From positions 1 through 23,273 of IMG/VR virus record IMGVR_UViG_3300037842_000103: a DNA stretch of 23,273 nucleotides, one strand, 5' to 3'. Shown piece by piece: positions 990-7,799 of the stretch (the stretch's first letter is position 1; each line of letters starts with the position of its first letter). Source of the stretch: a virus. A program made the translations under genes and the position numbers. A model generated the notes under the pieces. That model ran no database searches. It had not been told where the DNA came from and was given only the letters and a program-made list of their open reading frames with translations.

Positions 990-1385
990 CTATTCCTCAA
1001 CAACCGTTCTGGTTGATTTAAATTCAACACCAGTTGTAGTTGGGTCAGCATAAAGTAGAATATTACCACCAACCAGTTCAACTGAATATTCACTCAATGA
1101 AATATCATTAGTTTCGAGTGTAGCATATTCAGTATAATCCATACTACCACTTGAATTTTTTACTGCAGCGATAGTCGTATAATTATATGCACCAGTTTTA
1201 TTTGCCACAACATTATATGTTACAGCAGCAACTGCATCTGAAGATATAGAATCTATTGCTGTGTTTTCGTCTCCAGAAACAATCTGTTCGAATGTCTCAA
1301 CCGTTGGTTCTGCAGTTGCTACATTTTCTCCAACAACTCTTGAAGACATTATTTCAGCGAATAATCTATTTCTACTTTTTGCCAT
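990..1385 (-). CDS. Short stalkless adhesin-like protein (131 aa): anchor plus head domain
   Basis: The N-terminus MAKSRNRLFAEIM matches MAKSRSRDLADII of the 1731-aa protein, which fixes the start codon. From about residue 42 to the end the protein follows the same pattern as the last ~90 residues of the 1731-aa and 288-aa proteins. For example TAIDSISSDAVAAVTYNVVA aligns with QTIDTFGTADARTVKYLVEI, DYTEYATLE with VLSEYATVT, and there is a shared closing K/RxxRT or KxVKLA strand. It is therefore a miniature of the giant fibre with the repeat stalk removed. It lies immediately downstream of the giant gene, with a terminator and a late promoter between them. It could be an alternative tip, an assembly cap or a degenerate copy. 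No enzyme motif is visible. Confidence 0.85.
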   Translation of the reverse strand: MAKSRNRLFAEIMSSRVVGENVATAEPTVETFEQIVSGDENTAIDSISSDAVAAVTYNVVANKTGAYNYTTIAAVKNSSGSMDYTEYATLETNDISLSEYSVELVGGNILLYADPTTTGVEFKSTRTVVEE

Positions 1386-1391
1386 AACTTA

Positions 1392-1399
1392 TATTTATA
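1392..1399 (-). promoter_or_regulatory. T4-type late promoter box directly abutting the 131-aa gene
   Basis: Exact TATAAATA on the minus strand, with only six bases (TAAGTT) between the box and the ATG. T4 late transcripts start about six bases after the box, so the mRNA would begin at or next to the start codon. There is no Shine-Dalgarno sequence in that gap. Confidence 0.75.
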
Positions 1400-1466: not shown

Positions 1467-4400
1467 TCAAGCAACAGTTGCCAACTTAACTACCTTAACA
1501 GCAGAAGATGAAACGGTTGGAGTACAAGTCACAGTAAGTGTACTACCAGTTATACTAGCATCAACTGAACCTAACTCACTAGCACCAGTAGTAACAGTCG
1601 CATACTCAGACAATACAACATTAGTACCATCGTGAGTAAGAAGAACTTCCATAGAATGGAACTCATTCGCAACAGTGTCTTCAATCTCAACAAGATACTT
1701 AACTGTTCTAGCATCAGCAGTACCGAAAGTATCGATAGTCTGAGCAGTAGTACCACTAAGTGTTGCAGAAGCAGTGCTAATGTCAGCATTAACGTCAACG
1801 AAGTTTGCAGCACTTGAGTAAGTCTGAACAGATACAACATCATCTGCAGCAGCACCATCCGATAACCAAACAGAAGTAGTATTCGCTGCTTCATAGTCAG
1901 AACCAGCAAGTAGCATAATACCATTCATAAATACAGAGATCTTACCTGCTGTATAATCAAGTGTCGTACCGAAGTCATCAACACCAGTAAATGATTGCTG
2001 ACCAGCAGTAGCAGTATATGCTAACTCTGTGAACACATAATTGTTATTCGCAGCATATGCTTGGAATGCAGTATTCGAAACATAAGTAGAACTCAAGTGA
2101 GCATTACTTGCGAAGTCATCAGATATCGATACAGCGAAACTTGCAGTATTAGAACTAAACGAACCAGAACCAGTAACATCACCAGTTAAAGTAACAGTAG
2201 CACTAGCACCTAGTTTCTGACCTAAGTTGGTCGTTAAGGTAGTTGCAAAACTAGGATCGTCACCTAATGCAGTAGCTAACTCATTTAACGTATCTAGAGT
2301 CGCAGGAGCAGATGCTACTAAGTCAGCAACAGCACTATCAGTATAAGCACGGATAGCAGTATTACTAGCAGTTAAGTTTGTATTAACTAAATCAATTCTA
2401 GCAGACTGATCTGAAACTAATGAACGAATCGCAGTATTAGTACCAGTTAATCCTGACCATAGATTAGTATCTACTGTCTGTAGAGCAGAAATATCCGAAT
2501 CATTAGAACTAATTAAAGACCTAATAGCAGTATTACTAGCAGTTAAGTTAGAATTAACTAAATCAATTCTAGCAGATTCGTCAGAAACTAACGAACGGAT
2601 AGCAGTATTAGTGCCAGTTATTCCAGTCCATAAGTCACCGTCTTCCGTCTGTAGAGCAGAAATATCTGAATCATTAGAACTAATTAAAGATCTAATAGCA
2701 GTATTGGTTGAAAGTAATTCAGTCCAAGTTGCTTTATCAGATACATTGATTACAGTATCAAAAGTAGTTCCATCAGCAACAGAAATACGGAAGTTATTGT
2801 TAGCAGTAGTAAATGCTGTTCCAGTAACACCAGCAACAGTCTGAGTAGACATACTTGTAACACGACCATCAGCACCAACAGTTACAACAGGAACTAATGT
2901 AGCAGAACCATAAGCACCAGCAACAACACCTGAGTTAGCAAACGCAGTAGAAAGTGATACAGCATTAGCACTAAAGTTAGCAGAACCAGAAACAGCACCA
3001 GTTAATGTAACACTAGCACTAGCACCTAGTTTCTGACCTAAGTTAGTAGTCAGAGTTGTAGCAAAGTTAGCATCATCACCTAAAGCAGCAGCCAACTCAT
3101 TAAGAGTATCTAGAGCAGCAGGACTAGAATCAACTAGATTAGCAACAGCAGTATCAGTATAAGAACGGATAGCAGTATTAGTAGACAACAAGTTACTGTT
3201 AAGTAAATCAACTCTCGCAGATTCGTCAGATACTAAAGATCTAATAGCAGTATTAGTACCAGTCAATCCAGTCCATAAGTCACCATCTTCAGTTTGAAGA
3301 GCAGTAATATCTGAATCATTAGAACTAATCAGAGAACGGATAGCAGTATTAGTACCAGTCAATCCTGCCCAAGTTGCTCTAGTGTTTAAGTCTGTTTGCA
3401 ATCCATCTACGTTAGCAATAGTATGATTATGAGAATCATCAGCAATTACTGCAGTAATAGTAGCATCACCTGAACCATCAAAAGACGCAGAACCAGTAAC
3501 ATCACCAGTCAGTCCAATAGTCCTAGAAGTTGCTAAAGCAGTCGCAGTTGCAGCATTACCAGTAGTAGAACCAGAAGTACCAGTTACATTACCAGTTACA
3601 TTACCAGTTACATTACCAATTAGAGTATTCGCAGTTAAGTCACCAGTAACGGTTGTGTCACCAGAAATAGCACCACCAGTTTTATCAAACTTAGCATCTA
3701 ATGCAGTTTGTAAACCATCAACGTTTCCAACAATATGATTATGAGAATCATCAGCAATCGCAGTCGTAATAGTGATAGCATTAGCACTAAATGAAGCAGT
3801 ACCTGATACATCACCAGATAATGTTACAGTAGCAGTAGAACCTAGTTTCTGACCTAAGTTGGTCGAAACAGTCGTAGCAAAGTTAGCATCATCACCTAAA
3901 GCAGCAGCCAATTCATTTAACGTATCGAGCGCAGCAGGACTTGAATCAACTAGATTAGCAACAGCAGTATCAGTATAAGCACGGATAGCAGTATTACTAG
4001 CAGTTAAGTTTGTATTAACTAAATCAATTCTAGCAGACTGATCTGAAACTAATGAACGAATAGCAGTATTAGTACCTGTTAGATTAGTATTTAATACATC
4101 AACTCTCGCAGACTCATCAGAAACTAATGAACGGATAGCAGTATTAGTACCAGTTAAGTTTGTATTAACTAAATCAACTCTCGCAGACTCATCAGAAACT
4201 AATGAACGGATAGCAGTATTAGTGCCAGTCAATCCAGTCCATAAGTCACCATCTTCAGTTTGAAGAGCAGTAATATCTGAATCGTTATTACTAATTAAAG
4301 ATCTAATAGCAGTATTAGTACCAGTCAATCCTGCCCAAGTTGCCTTAGTGTTTAACTCAGTCTGTAATCCATCTACATTACCGATAATATGGTTATGAGA

Positions 4401-6662
4401 ATCATCAGCAATAGTAGTTGTGATAGAAACAGCATTTGCGCTGAATGTAGCAGAACCTGACACATCGCCAGTTAAAGCAACTGAAGCACCAGCACCTAGT
4501 TTCTGACCTAAGTTGGTCGTTAAGGTTGTCGCAAAGTTAGCATCATCGTTTAAAGCAGCAGCCAACTCATTAAGAGTATCTAGAGTTGCTGGAGCAGAAT
4601 CTACAAGACCAGAAACTTCTGATGAAATTACTCCTCTAATAGCAGTATTAGTAGATGTAATCGCCGACCATAAGTTAGTATCTTCAGTTTCTAGATCTGA
4701 TACATTACCTTGTAAGGTAGAGATGTCGCCATCGTTAGATGTAATCAATGCACGGATAGCAGTATTACTAGCAGTTAAGTTTGTATTAACTAAATCAATT
4801 CTAGCAGACTGATCTGAAACTAATGAACGGATAGCAGTATTAGTACCAGTTAAACCAGTCCATAAGTCGCCATCTTCAGTTTCTAAAGCAGTTGCTCTAC
4901 CTTGTAAAGCAGAGATATCGCTGTCATTAGAACTAATTAAAGACCTAATAGCAGTATTGGTTGAAAGTAATTCGGTCCAAGTTGCTTTATCAGATACATC
5001 GATTTGAGTATCAAATGTAGTACCGTCAGCAACCGCAACACGTAAGTTGTTATTAGCAGATGTAAATCCAACAGAAGTTACACCAGCAACAGTCTGAGTT
5101 GTTACACTTGTAACACGACCATCATTACCAACAGTTACAACAGGAACTAATGTAGCAGAACCGTAAGTTCCGCCAGTAACACCTGAATTTGATAACGTAG
5201 TAGAAAGTGATACAGCATTAGCACTAAATGAAGCAGAACCAGTAACATCACCAGTTAATGCAACGGTAGCAGTTGAACCTAGTTTCTGACCTAAGTTGGT
5301 CGAAACAGTAGTTGCGAAGTTAGCATCATCACCTAAAGCAGCAGCCAACTCATTAAGAGTATCTAGAGCAGCAGGACTAGAATCAACTAGATTAGCAACA
5401 GCAGTATCAGTATAAGAACGGATAGCAGTATTGGTAGAAACTAATGCTGACCATAGATTAGTATCTTCGCCTTGTAGAGCAGTAATATCGCCATCGTTAG
5501 ATGTAATCAATGCACGGATATCAGTATTAGTTCCAACTAAGTTTGTATTAAGAACATCAACTCTAGCAGATTCATCAGATACTAATGAACGGATAGCAGT
5601 ATTAGTACCAGTTAAGTTTGTATTAACTAAATCAACTCTAGCAGATTCGTCTGATACTAAAGATCTAATAGCAGTATTAGTACCAGTTAAGTTTGTATTA
5701 ACTAAATCAACTCTAGCAGATTCGTCTGATACTAAAGATCTAATAGCAGTATTAGTACCAGTTAATCCTGACCAAGTTGCTCTAGTGTTTAAGTCTGCTT
5801 GAAGTCCATCAACGTTAGCAATAATATGATTATGAGAATCATCAGCAATAGTAGTTGTGATAGAAACAGCATTAGCACTAAATGAAGCAGTACCAGTAAC
5901 ATCACCAGTTAATGCAACAGTAGCACTAGAACCTAGTTTCTGACCTAAGTTGGTCGTTAAGGTTGTCGCAAAGTTCGCATCATCACCTAACGCATCCGCA
6001 AGTTCGTTTAATGTATCTAGAGTTGCTGGAGCAGAATCTACAAGACCAGATACCTCTGAAGAAATTACTCCTCTAATAGCAGTATTAGTAGATGTTATCG
6101 CTGACCATAGATTAGTATCTTCAGTTTCTAGATCTGATACATTACCTTGTAAAGCAGTAATATCACCATCATTAGAACTGATTAGAGATCTGATAGCAGT
6201 ATTAGTACCAGTTAGATTAGTATTAAGAACATCAACTCTAGCAGACTGATCAGATACTAAAGATCTAATAGCAGTATTAGTACCAGTTAAACCAGTCCAT
6301 AAGTCGCCATCTTCAGTTTCTAAAGCAGTTGCTCTACCTTGTAGAGTACTGATGTCACCATCGTTAGAACTAATCAGAGAACGAATCGCTGTGTTACTAG
6401 CAGTTAAGTTAGAATTAACTAAATCAATTCTATCAGTTTCTACGTCAATATTGCTTTGCGTAGAAGAAATTTGAGAATTTACGTATGTATTTGATGCTAA
6501 CGTACTTGTGTCGTTAGTAATTTTTGATTCAACAGCATTTAAGTCTATTGAAATTTGTGATAATGTTACACCATTATTTGCCGATACATCTGCGTGATTA
6601 CTGGTATATATACTTTTTTTACCAATTATATCCGCGAGGTCTCTAGATCTTGATTTAGCCAT
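1467..6662 (-). CDS. Giant modular tail fibre/adhesin (1731 aa) with 26 stalk repeats
   Basis: Residues 1-16 (MAKSRSRDLADIIGKK) are an anchor-type N-terminus shared with the 131-aa protein. Residues ~80-1510 are a stalk with 26 copies of a unit starting (S/T)NT(A/D)IR. The commonest form is 25 residues (75 bp) with coiled-coil-like spacing of hydrophobics. The stalk also holds six LDTLNELA super-modules near residues 215, 433, 695, 912, 1186 and 1455, each followed by FATT...NLGQKLG. A TLVPVVTVG...DKATWTELL module occurs twice (about 490-562 and 1244-1314). From ~1540 on there is a head: an FTGVDDFG...VFMNGIMLL segment, then a VNADI...KYLVEIED beta domain, both paralogous to the 288-aa protein. 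The ribosome site is AAGGAAAA. The likely role is a trimeric fibre that contacts the host. There is no S74 chaperone and no catalytic motif. Confidence 0.9.
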   Translation of the reverse strand: MAKSRSRDLADIIGKKSIYTSNHADVSANNGVTLSQISIDLNAVESKITNDTSTLASNTYVNSQISSTQSNIDVETDRIDLVNSNLTASNTAIRSLISSNDGDISTLQGRATALETEDGDLWTGLTGTNTAIRSLVSDQSARVDVLNTNLTGTNTAIRSLISSNDGDITALQGNVSDLETEDTNLWSAITSTNTAIRGVISSEVSGLVDSAPATLDTLNELADALGDDANFATTLTTNLGQKLGSSATVALTGDVTGTASFSANAVSITTTIADDSHNHIIANVDGLQADLNTRATWSGLTGTNTAIRSLVSDESARVDLVNTNLTGTNTAIRSLVSDESARVDLVNTNLTGTNTAIRSLVSDESARVDVLNTNLVGTNTDIRALITSNDGDITALQGEDTNLWSALVSTNTAIRSYTDTAVANLVDSSPAALDTLNELAAALGDDANFATTVSTNLGQKLGSTATVALTGDVTGSASFSANAVSLSTTLSNSGVTGGTYGSATLVPVVTVGNDGRVTSVTTQTVAGVTSVGFTSANNNLRVAVADGTTFDTQIDVSDKATWTELLSTNTAIRSLISSNDSDISALQGRATALETEDGDLWTGLTGTNTAIRSLVSDQSARIDLVNTNLTASNTAIRALITSNDGDISTLQGNVSDLETEDTNLWSAITSTNTAIRGVISSEVSGLVDSAPATLDTLNELAAALNDDANFATTLTTNLGQKLGAGASVALTGDVSGSATFSANAVSITTTIADDSHNHIIGNVDGLQTELNTKATWAGLTGTNTAIRSLISNNDSDITALQTEDGDLWTGLTGTNTAIRSLVSDESARVDLVNTNLTGTNTAIRSLVSDESARVDVLNTNLTGTNTAIRSLVSDQSARIDLVNTNLTASNTAIRAYTDTAVANLVDSSPAALDTLNELAAALGDDANFATTVSTNLGQKLGSTATVTLSGDVSGTASFSANAITITTAIADDSHNHIVGNVDGLQTALDAKFDKTGGAISGDTTVTGDLTANTLIGNVTGNVTGNVTGTSGSTTGNAATATALATSRTIGLTGDVTGSASFDGSGDATITAVIADDSHNHTIANVDGLQTDLNTRATWAGLTGTNTAIRSLISSNDSDITALQTEDGDLWTGLTGTNTAIRSLVSDESARVDLLNSNLLSTNTAIRSYTDTAVANLVDSSPAALDTLNELAAALGDDANFATTLTTNLGQKLGASASVTLTGAVSGSANFSANAVSLSTAFANSGVVAGAYGSATLVPVVTVGADGRVTSMSTQTVAGVTGTAFTTANNNFRISVADGTTFDTVINVSDKATWTELLSTNTAIRSLISSNDSDISALQTEDGDLWTGITGTNTAIRSLVSDESARIDLVNSNLTASNTAIRSLISSNDSDISALQTVDTNLWSGLTGTNTAIRSLVSDQSARIDLVNTNLTASNTAIRAYTDSAVADLVASAPATLDTLNELATALGDDPSFATTLTTNLGQKLGASATVTLTGDVTGSGSFSSNTASFAVSISDDFASNAHLSSTYVSNTAFQAYAANNNYVFTELAYTATAGQQSFTGVDDFGTTLDYTAGKISVFMNGIMLLAGSDYEAANTTSVWLSDGAAADDVVSVQTYSSAANFVDVNADISTASATLSGTTAQTIDTFGTADARTVKYLVEIEDTVANEFHSMEVLLTHDGTNVVLSEYATVTTGASELGSVDASITGSTLTVTCTPTVSSSAVKVVKLATVA
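3579..3614. repeat. Three perfect 12-bp tandem units inside the giant fibre gene
   Basis: ACCAGTTACATT is repeated three times without change and encodes NVTG-NVTG-NVTG on the minus strand. Units of 12 bp keep the frame, so copy-number slippage would lengthen or shorten the protein by four residues at a time. Confidence 0.9.
4033..4232. repeat. Tandem 75-bp repeats, set B
   Basis: Units begin with gcagact at 4033, 4108 and 4183, exactly 75 bases apart. Each encodes one 25-residue TGTNTAIRSLVSD(E/Q)SAR stalk unit. The second and third units are nearly identical over about 50 bases; the first differs at several silent positions. Confidence 0.85.
5566..5765. repeat. Tandem 75-bp repeats, set A
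   Basis: Units begin with gcagatt at 5566, 5641 and 5716, exactly 75 bases apart. The units at 5641 and 5716 are identical for about 50 bases into the third, which then diverges at the module boundary. This is a recent in-frame expansion of the 25-residue stalk unit. Confidence 0.9.
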
Positions 6663-6720
6663 GGGAGTTTTCCTTGTTATTTAGAATAGTTTTTGTAAAA
6701 TATAACCTTTGAGTCGTAAT

Positions 6721-6798
6721 TTAATCATCCAGGTGTTCATTTCCCACCTTTAGATGTTCAATATCCCATCTATAGACTATAACAATGTTGGTGTTCAT
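6721..6798 (-). CDS. Possible 25-codon upstream ORF in the leader of the giant fibre gene
   Basis: It starts at the ATG inside the loop of the first leader hairpin (GGTGGGAAATGAAC) and ends with TAA at 6721-6723, encoding MNTNIVIVYRWDIEHLKVGN plus five more residues. The purine-rich GGTGGGAA just before the ATG could act as a ribosome site, although the spacing is short. The ATG in the third hairpin opens a second small frame (6681-6740, 19 codons), also starting MNT because the hairpin is repeated. Either may be chance. Translation would open the hairpins, so a coupling role is conceivable. Confidence 0.25.
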   Translation of the reverse strand: MNTNIVIVYRWDIEHLKVGNEHLDD

Positions 6799-6807
6799 TT
6801 CCCACCA
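6731..6807 (-). promoter_or_regulatory. Triple-hairpin leader RNA element upstream of the giant fibre gene
   Basis: Three hairpins on the transcribed strand. H1 is 6807-6789 (UGGUG stem, loop GGAAAUGAA, CACCA). H2 is 6772-6751 (UAGAUG, loop GGAUAUUGAA, CAUCUA). H3 is 6749-6731 (AGGUG, loop GGAAAUGAA, CACCU). Loops are conserved (GGA at the 5' side, UGAA at the 3' side). The stems differ by paired changes: U-A versus A-U at the outer pair, and G-C versus A-U at the third pair of H2. All three lie between the late promoter box at 6829 and the ATG at 6662, so they are in the 5' leader. The repeated pattern suggests binding sites for a protein or the ribosome. No known RNA family is recognised. 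Confidence 0.6.
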
Positions 6808-6828
6808 GTTAAAAGGTTCTTACAGTAT

Positions 6829-6836
6829 TATTTATA
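6829..6836 (-). promoter_or_regulatory. T4-type late promoter box for the giant fibre gene
   Basis: Exact TATAAATA on the minus strand, 17 bases past the stop of the 288-aa gene. Predicted initiation is near 6823, giving a leader of about 160 nt that contains the triple-hairpin element. This is the longest leader of any gene in the window. No terminator separates it from the preceding gene, so read-through is also possible. Confidence 0.75.
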
Positions 6837-6852
6837 AGAATAAACGTTCTGT

Positions 6853-7719
6853 TTAGATAGTTATGCTTGTTCTGATAACTTTAATTGTTGTGTTAGAATT
6901 GATAGGTGTAACTTTCAACCTTACTGAACCACTATCAATATCGCTGTCAATACTGCCTAAAGTATTTAAGGATTTGATGGCACCATATTCTGTTATATAG
7001 GTATCTGACCCATCGTGTAATACCATTACTTCCGAAGTTTGATATGTGTTGTTAGCATTGTTTGTCATTTGAACAATATACTTAGCACTTCTATAATCAC
7101 CAGTTCCCCAACTATCGACTACGGTTTCACTAACAGCACTTGTAGTTTGCGTATTAGTTGTGATGTCAGCATCCACATTAACCCAAGATAGATATGCTGA
7201 GTATGCCTGAACGCAAACGATCTCATCAGGACCTGTGCTATCAGTAAGTGTGATCGAACTTGTATTTGAAACGTAAGTATAGTCAGTATTTGCTTTAAGT
7301 AAAATACCATTTAGATGAACAGTTAAATTACTTTTATCGTGAATTAATGTTTTACCAAAGTCATCTGTTCCTTCAAATACAGTTTGATTATTAGAAGAAG
7401 TGAAATTGAATTGATTGAAAGATTTTCTAGTGAGGGAATCTTTGTCTGACCAAGAAAGGGTTCCAGAACCGTCTGTTTCTAGAACCTGTGCTGACGCACC
7501 ATCTGAAGTCGGGAAGGTGAATGGATTAGTATTACCTAGTGTGAGTGTTCCTATTTTAGAAATTGCGGTGTTAGAACCGATTTCGAAAATAGCACTTCCG
7601 TCGGAAGAGAAGAGTTTCTTATCTCTGGTGTTTAAGGCAATTTCGCCTTGTTGTAAGTCTGCAGTTGTTGGTGACTTGCCTCTGACAGCAGACCGTTTAA
7701 TCTTTAATATCGATGCCAT
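6853..7719 (-). CDS. Adhesin/fibre protein (288 aa): Mtd-type anchor plus the shared head domain
   Basis: Residues 1-50 carry MASILKIKRS...LQQGEIALNTRDKKLF, a pattern shared with the 342-aa and 132-aa proteins. It resembles the N-terminal region of phage tropism determinants (Mtd-like), by memory of the family only. A short linker follows. Residues ~104-170 (FTSSNNQTVFEGTDDFGKTL...VHLNGILLKANTDY) and ~171-288 (VNVDADI...YRSAKYIVQMTNN...VLHDGSD...ITEYGAI) match the last ~190 residues of the giant fibre. The protein thus looks like a short fibre with the same head but a different anchor. Ribosome site AAAGGAAAA, 10 bases before the ATG; the start codon lies in a 12-bp palindrome CCATATATATGG (7716-7727). 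It has its own late promoter. Confidence 0.88.
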   Translation of the reverse strand: MASILKIKRSAVRGKSPTTADLQQGEIALNTRDKKLFSSDGSAIFEIGSNTAISKIGTLTLGNTNPFTFPTSDGASAQVLETDGSGTLSWSDKDSLTRKSFNQFNFTSSNNQTVFEGTDDFGKTLIHDKSNLTVHLNGILLKANTDYTYVSNTSSITLTDSTGPDEIVCVQAYSAYLSWVNVDADITTNTQTTSAVSETVVDSWGTGDYRSAKYIVQMTNNANNTYQTSEVMVLHDGSDTYITEYGAIKSLNTLGSIDSDIDSGSVRLKVTPINSNTTIKVIRTSITI

Positions 7720-7770
7720 ATATATGGTTTTCCTTTCAAAGTCTATGTAGACCAGTTATAATCAATTTTA

Positions 7771-7784
7771 GTGTTATATAACAC
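7771..7784 (-). other. Perfect 14-bp palindrome at the predicted 5' end of the 288-aa gene's mRNA
   Basis: GTGTTATATAACAC is its own reverse complement. The late box at 7792-7799 predicts initiation near 7786, so the RNA would begin with a GUGUUA/UAACAC stem, two or so bases from its 5' end. Such 5'-terminal stems can protect mRNA from decay. As DNA it could equally be an operator for a dimeric protein. Confidence 0.5.
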
Positions 7785-7791
7785 TTTTGTA

Positions 7792-7799
7792 TATTTATA
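7792..7799 (-). promoter_or_regulatory. T4-type late promoter box for the 288-aa adhesin gene
   Basis: Exact TATAAATA on the minus strand, 20 bases past the terminator stem of the preceding gene. The leader would be about 66 nt. Confidence 0.8.

Follow-up and report, generated by a model that had tools for sequence, protein, structure and literature searches.

The leader of the giant tail fibre gene in a T4-type phage contains three tandem hairpins that are very probably a real, so far undescribed RNA control element. They were found in IMGVR_UViG_3300037842_000103, a viral fragment of 23,273 bases (referred to below, over its whole length, as the window) with T4-type tail and baseplate genes on the minus strand. 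A marine origin of this phage is plausible; the closest isolates, identified with its VrlC-like protein, are phages of Ochrobactrum, Rhizobium, Pelagibacter and Methylophilales, at ~31–35% identity. Two other contigs, L014 and L039 (IMGVR_UViG_3300038360_000014 and IMGVR_UViG_3300038326_000034), encode a VrlC-like protein with a 100% match to that of the window and probably represent the same phage species; both contigs stop short of the fibre leader.

Tandem hairpins downstream of a late promoter

An earlier note on this DNA had reported that GGTGTTCATTTCCCACC occurs at 6732-6748 and 6790-6806, that a diverged third copy lies between these 17-mers (6751-6772), and that each copy can fold into a hairpin of 5–6 Watson-Crick pairs closed by the loops given in Table 1. 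All of this was borne out, including the compensatory nature of the stem differences (outer pair U-A or A-U, third pair G-C or A-U). The invariant loop letters are GGA and UGAA; of the four occurrences of the loop class, GGANA(N)UGAA, in the window, three are in the fibre leader. The hairpins end 126, 88 and 68 nt from the fibre AUG. When the whole window was resampled 300 times with a Markov-1 model, hairpins sharing the first three and the last four loop letters within 100 nt were obtained as two pairs and no triple; tandem hairpins with common loops are far beyond chance.

The motif TATAAATA, which matches the T4-type late promoter, was detected seven times in the window, against 3.2 expected, with all seven copies on the minus strand. 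Several of them lie directly upstream of genes, and the same positions are kept in the relative L015 (see below). With the distance from promoter to transcript start known for T4 late promoters, the fibre transcript is predicted to begin at ~6823, which gives a leader of ~161 nt up to the ORF start at 6662 (-). Judged by the conserved promoter just upstream, the hairpins would lie within the transcribed leader; since their stems hold no G-U pair, we infer their strand from this promoter. No G+C-rich hairpin followed by a U run, as in an intrinsic terminator or attenuator, was found at 6600-6900. Another copy of the motif, at 1392-1399 (-), ends 6 nt before the ATG of a 131-aa ORF (990-1385, minus strand), whose late mRNA, given this spacing, may be leaderless. 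The N-terminus encoded by this ORF, MAKSRNR, resembles MAKSRSR of the giant fibre.

Table 1. Features of the fibre and connector leaders in the window
Feature	Position (strand)	Remarks
Tail fibre ORF, 1731 aa, downstream of the hairpin leader	1467..6662 (-)	PHROG tail and tail-fibre families, best E = 6.8e-85
Probable Shine-Dalgarno AAGGA of the fibre gene, outside the hairpin domain	6671..6675 (-)	Read off the sequence
3' strand of candidate helix P0 (AAAGGU, bulge, UUUUAC)	6695..6710 (-)	Predicted by folding; L015 counterpart AAGGCA
Hairpin 3, AGGUG-GGAAAUGAA-CACCU	6731..6749 (-)	No counterpart in L015 (alignment of both leaders)
Hairpin 2, UAGAUG-GGAUAUUGAA-CAUCUA	6751..6772 (-)	L015 orthologue UAGUUA-GGAUAGUGAA-UAACUA
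Hairpin 1, UGGUG-GGAAAUGAA-CACCA	6789..6807 (-)	L015 orthologue UGGUG-GGACAAUGAA-CACCA
5' strand of candidate closing helix P0 (GUAAGA-ACCUUU)	6812..6823 (-)	Predicted by folding; L015 counterpart UGCCUU, seen with hairpins imposed
Fibre-gene T4-type late promoter, TATAAATA	6829..6836 (-)	Exact match; same place in L015
Connector-like tail protein ORF, 288 aa	6853..7719 (-)	phrog_967, baseplate wedge tail fiber protein connector, E = 7.9e-11
Companion hairpin B, GGUCU-ACAU-AGACU	7740..7753 (-)	Covaries in 31 phage leaders
Companion hairpin A, AGUGUU-AUAU-AACACU	7770..7785 (-)	Stems differ in L018, L083, L087
Connector-gene late promoter, TATAAATA	7792..7799 (-)	Kept in L015, L018, L087 and others

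The homologous leader and the distribution of the array

Within the window by itself, just two stem pairs covary; stronger evidence comes from L015, which was reached via the upstream connector gene (contig IMGVR_UViG_3300048634_000122; L012, L015) and whose connector protein is 83% identical to that of the window. A homologous leader with retained pairing, on which the earlier note had made its reading depend, does exist in this contig, the sole relative found to hold it: L015 keeps the promoter and two hairpins. In hairpin 2, two double compensatory changes (UAGAUG/CAUCUA to UAGUUA/UAACUA) reduce the identity of the stem strands to 67% and leave the pairing complete. The loops are ~90% identical between the two leaders, the linkers and flanks 45–59%. 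Over the five hairpins, in an alignment built on the hairpin model, covariation was 0.567 against 0.214 when shuffled (0/500 shuffles) and at most 0.10 once the partner strand was slid, with 90% of the cells paired; these statistics, drawn from few sequences (two phages) and an alignment fitted to structure, are supportive and not proof. The compensatory changes in homologous leaders place the array, at the level of sequence comparison, among covarying cis-RNA leader elements. The absence of hairpin 3 from L015 indicates that the copy number varies, as in binding-site arrays.

The computed energy of the leader is ordinary. Its unconstrained fold is unexceptional (z = -1.1), hairpin 2 is absent from the free-energy minimum of the window (pair probability 0.02), and the hairpins of the unconstrained L015 leader have pair probabilities of 0.06–0.14. 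It is therefore the comparison of sequences, and not folding energy, that carries the case. When the hairpins were imposed, both leaders shared one enclosing helix (P0), formed by ACCUUU/AAAGGU in the window, where it is extended by GUAAGA/UUUUAC, and by UGCCUU/AAGGCA in L015, with two pairs differing on both sides (A-U to G-C and A-U to U-A). With two sequences as its basis, P0 is a candidate closing helix around the hairpins.

The GGANA(N)UGAA class was seen in two phages, those represented by the window and L015. A covariance model of the hairpin detected only the five known copies in 1.07 Mb of related loci and 0.54 Mb of further loci, and no further strong match in 57 records, ten of them complete named phages; searching the whole records of ten named phages gave just weak, chance-level matches, as did comparison of the leader nucleotides with named phages (chance matches only). 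GTDB genomes yielded no match to the two-hairpin pattern or the connector protein, and no comparable non-coding array was found when all related loci were searched for tandem hairpins with any other common loop of at least 7. The fibre N-terminus, used as a query, retrieved L003, whose contig begins inside the gene, and L015/L094. Rfam 15 gave no match to the window on either strand at E up to 1, which is consistent with the earlier statement that no named RNA family has this form, and leaders of this kind on the fibre genes of T4-like phages were not described in the open-licence literature searched.

Several candidates were rejected. The exact 17-mer had six matches in viral contigs, all in G+C-rich unrelated sequence, and the two-copy array pattern had two, both peptide-coding repeats in phages; the pattern TGGTGGGAN{2,4}TGAACACCA matched in context only in L015 (as L101), the others being chance matches. 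Two identical hairpins AGUUA-AGUUUGUAU, 75 nt apart, are also present inside the fibre ORF itself (5615-5703, plus strand), where they constitute a coding repeat.

A companion hairpin in the leaders of connector genes

In many phages a start-proximal hairpin of the form NNNNU-AYAU-ANNNN lies 20–26 nt before the AUG of genes of the connector family. In 31 distinct leaders, all five pairs (5/5) have changed on both sides and 95.5% of the cells are paired; covariation was 0.765 against 0.250 when shuffled (0/500 shuffles) and at most 0.22 when slid. Since the leaders were collected via the connector gene family, and not via the hairpin, the AYAU hairpin is no selection artefact, and its nine G-U against no A-C pairs indicate that selection acts on the mRNA strand. 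The companion is a statistically stronger object than the fibre array. The presence of a covarying leader on the connector gene as well suggests that structured late leaders on fibre genes are recurrent in these phages.

Related forms were found upstream of homologous genes in the isolate Synechococcus phage S-8S55 (tail fibre gene; CCGAU-UUAU-AUCGG) and in the single-cell record AG-345-F15 (GCAGU-AUAU-ACUGC). Rfam, run against six relatives, gave no match at the gathering score. The AYAU hairpin is widespread before connector genes of the MASxxKIKRS type (L015, L018, L083, L087, L137-L197), often with a second AUAU, ACAU or AAAU hairpin, or a terminator-like hairpin, upstream of it. In L156, L164 and L173, a TATAAATA and the AYAU hairpin are separated by a strong terminator-like hairpin (AAAAGGGGAG...CTCCCCTTTTT; upstream of position 4001), which calls for an explanation of how the connector gene is transcribed in these loci.

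Relation to known RNAs and possible function

In general plan, the fibre element resembles a translational operator or a leader stabiliser, but it lacks a defining feature of each of the RegA, gp43, RegB, CsrA and guanidine-II sites and fits none of the named families tested. The earlier interpretation thus stands as far as it proposed a multi-site RNA element in the fibre leader, selected on pairing (the promoter and the pairing in L015 are kept, and Rfam gave no match), but not in the examples it offered, RegA and gp43. The T4/RB69 gp43 operator is a hairpin with a UAAC or UAAA loop that lies about 40 nt upstream and extends to the ribosome binding site (PMC3014915). It shares with the fibre array the small hairpin of conserved loop and variable stem base in a T4-type mRNA leader (PMC3014915); however, the operator is a single hairpin on an early/middle gene, whereas here two or three hairpins precede a late structural gene, and loops of the form GGANA(N)UGAA, at least 68 nt from the fibre AUG, do not support a gp43-like site. 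The SELEX ligand of RegA is unstructured, and RegA sites either overlap the start codon or lie directly next to it (PMC3014915). The conserved pairing and the position 68–126 nt upstream of the AUG speak against a site of this kind, and no RegA gene is present in the 23,273-base fragment; the likeness consists in phage post-transcriptional control via mRNA leaders and in the companion loop context UUAUAUAA, which resembles part of the SELEX consensus aaAAUUGUUAUGUAA (PMC3014915).

T4 RegB requires GGAG or GGAU and an A-rich sequence on its 3' side and acts on early mRNAs, late transcripts being resistant (PMC3014915). GGA is common to its sites and the fibre array, in which GGAU occurs in 2/5 loops and GGAG in 0/5. 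Several GGA-containing hairpin loops per leader also recall CsrA/RsmE targets. The CsrA consensus is A-N-GGA, and the conserved 3' UGAA is not known to play a part in CsrA binding; the A-N-GGA context is absent here, position -2 before GGA being U in 5/5 hairpins of the window and L015. The ribosome decoy suggested in the earlier note is conceivable and unsupported, with GGA just 1–2 nt from the NUG triplet. Like the fibre element, the cyanophage RNAs wcaG, manA and PhotoRC-II are structured leaders in T4-like marine phages (PMC2864571), but they are attached to host-like metabolic genes, and none was matched in the window by Rfam.

We give about even chances to the reading that 6823-6695 (-) is a loop-recognised, probably protein-bound, post-transcriptional element on the late fibre mRNA. 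This domain would comprise the outer helix around two or three hairpins with interchangeable stems. The conserved loops would be recognised by a factor acting in trans, most probably a phage or host RNA-binding protein, the multiple copies would provide avidity, and the array would act at a distance on the stability or translation of the mRNA. The combination of a conserved loop, a free stem and a variable copy number is the signature of a loop reader. The array stops 68 nt short of the AUG, or about 45 nt short in L015, and leaves the Shine-Dalgarno sequence free; it would therefore not simply cover the start site, and direct occlusion of the Shine-Dalgarno sequence is unlikely.

A possible, though on balance doubtful, alternative is that the hairpins, lying near the 5' end, protect this very long late transcript against 5'-end-dependent decay, with GGA and GAA stacked as consecutive sheared purine pairs that would make the 9–10 nt loop unusually stable, no protein reading it. 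Consecutive pairs of this type are stable, and the invariant GGA and GAA are precisely letters able to form three of them; moreover, the hairpins begin ~15 nt into the predicted transcript and clear of the ribosome binding site, and a short 5' tail protrudes from the outer helix. However, the inner loop letters A5 and U7, not needed for mere stacking, are also conserved, two or three copies exceed the need of a cap, and the computed hairpin stability is modest. It is the conservation of the inner loop letters and the repetition of the copies that lead us to prefer a protein-bound array, both over such a stabiliser and over a switch. A metabolite-controlled switch of the guanidine-II (mini-ykkC) type would be built on the same plan, a leader with at least two small tandem hairpins whose loops are conserved and whose linker varies (PMC5486947), and mini-ykkC was likewise first taken for a protein site, given its small repetitive hairpins (PMC2864571). 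This reading is nevertheless improbable: the two stem-loops of guanidine-II have ACGR tetraloops (PMC5486947) and G+C-rich stems, in contrast to GGANA(N)UGAA and AYAU without any Rfam match here; the fibre loops lack complementarity to one another, the array is far from the ribosome binding site, and a late structural phage gene is an unusual target of metabolite control.

Another kind of switch, in which UGGGA of a hairpin pairs alternatively with UCCCAU at the fibre start codon, the start site being freed when the hairpins form, agrees with the rise in the unpaired probability of this region in the window from 0.20 to 0.44 with the hairpins imposed. In L015, however, the values are 0.65 without and 0.67 with hairpins, i.e. 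the effect is not conserved, and the second L015 hairpin has no GGG, which makes this the least credible of the readings considered. It is also very improbable that the repeats act at the DNA level (operator dyads, a cruciform, or a recombination or replication site) or are duplications with no RNA function. The near identity of hairpins 1 and 3 indicates that local duplication did happen, but a DNA-binding protein would conserve sequence and not pairing, whereas hairpin 2 changed two pairs on both sides and kept its pairing; in addition, the G-U bias of the companion is RNA-strand behaviour, and both elements lie directly downstream of late promoters.

The connector leader, with its different loop, would fit a scheme that tunes the output of late tail-fibre genes. 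In its boldest form, which we consider rather unlikely, T4-like phages of this group would label every tail-fibre late mRNA with a distinct loop carried on tandem hairpins, GGANA(N)UGAA on that of the giant fibre and AYAU on that of the connector. One or two phage RNA-binding proteins, or contacts between loops, would read this code and so set the ratios of fibre proteins post-transcriptionally. Since A-N-A-(N)-U is present in both loops, a single reader recognising two variants of its site is conceivable.

To the extent that the tests allow, the fibre element is real, undescribed and small in its known distribution. The UUAU-loop form upstream of the tail fibre gene in the isolate S-8S55 makes the question testable in culture. 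Post-transcriptional control in T4-type phages is known mostly for early and replication genes (gp32, gp43, RegA, RegB). If the proposed reading is true, late tail-fibre mRNAs would be under a layer of control of their own, in which a covarying element with conserved loops sets the output of host-recognition proteins.
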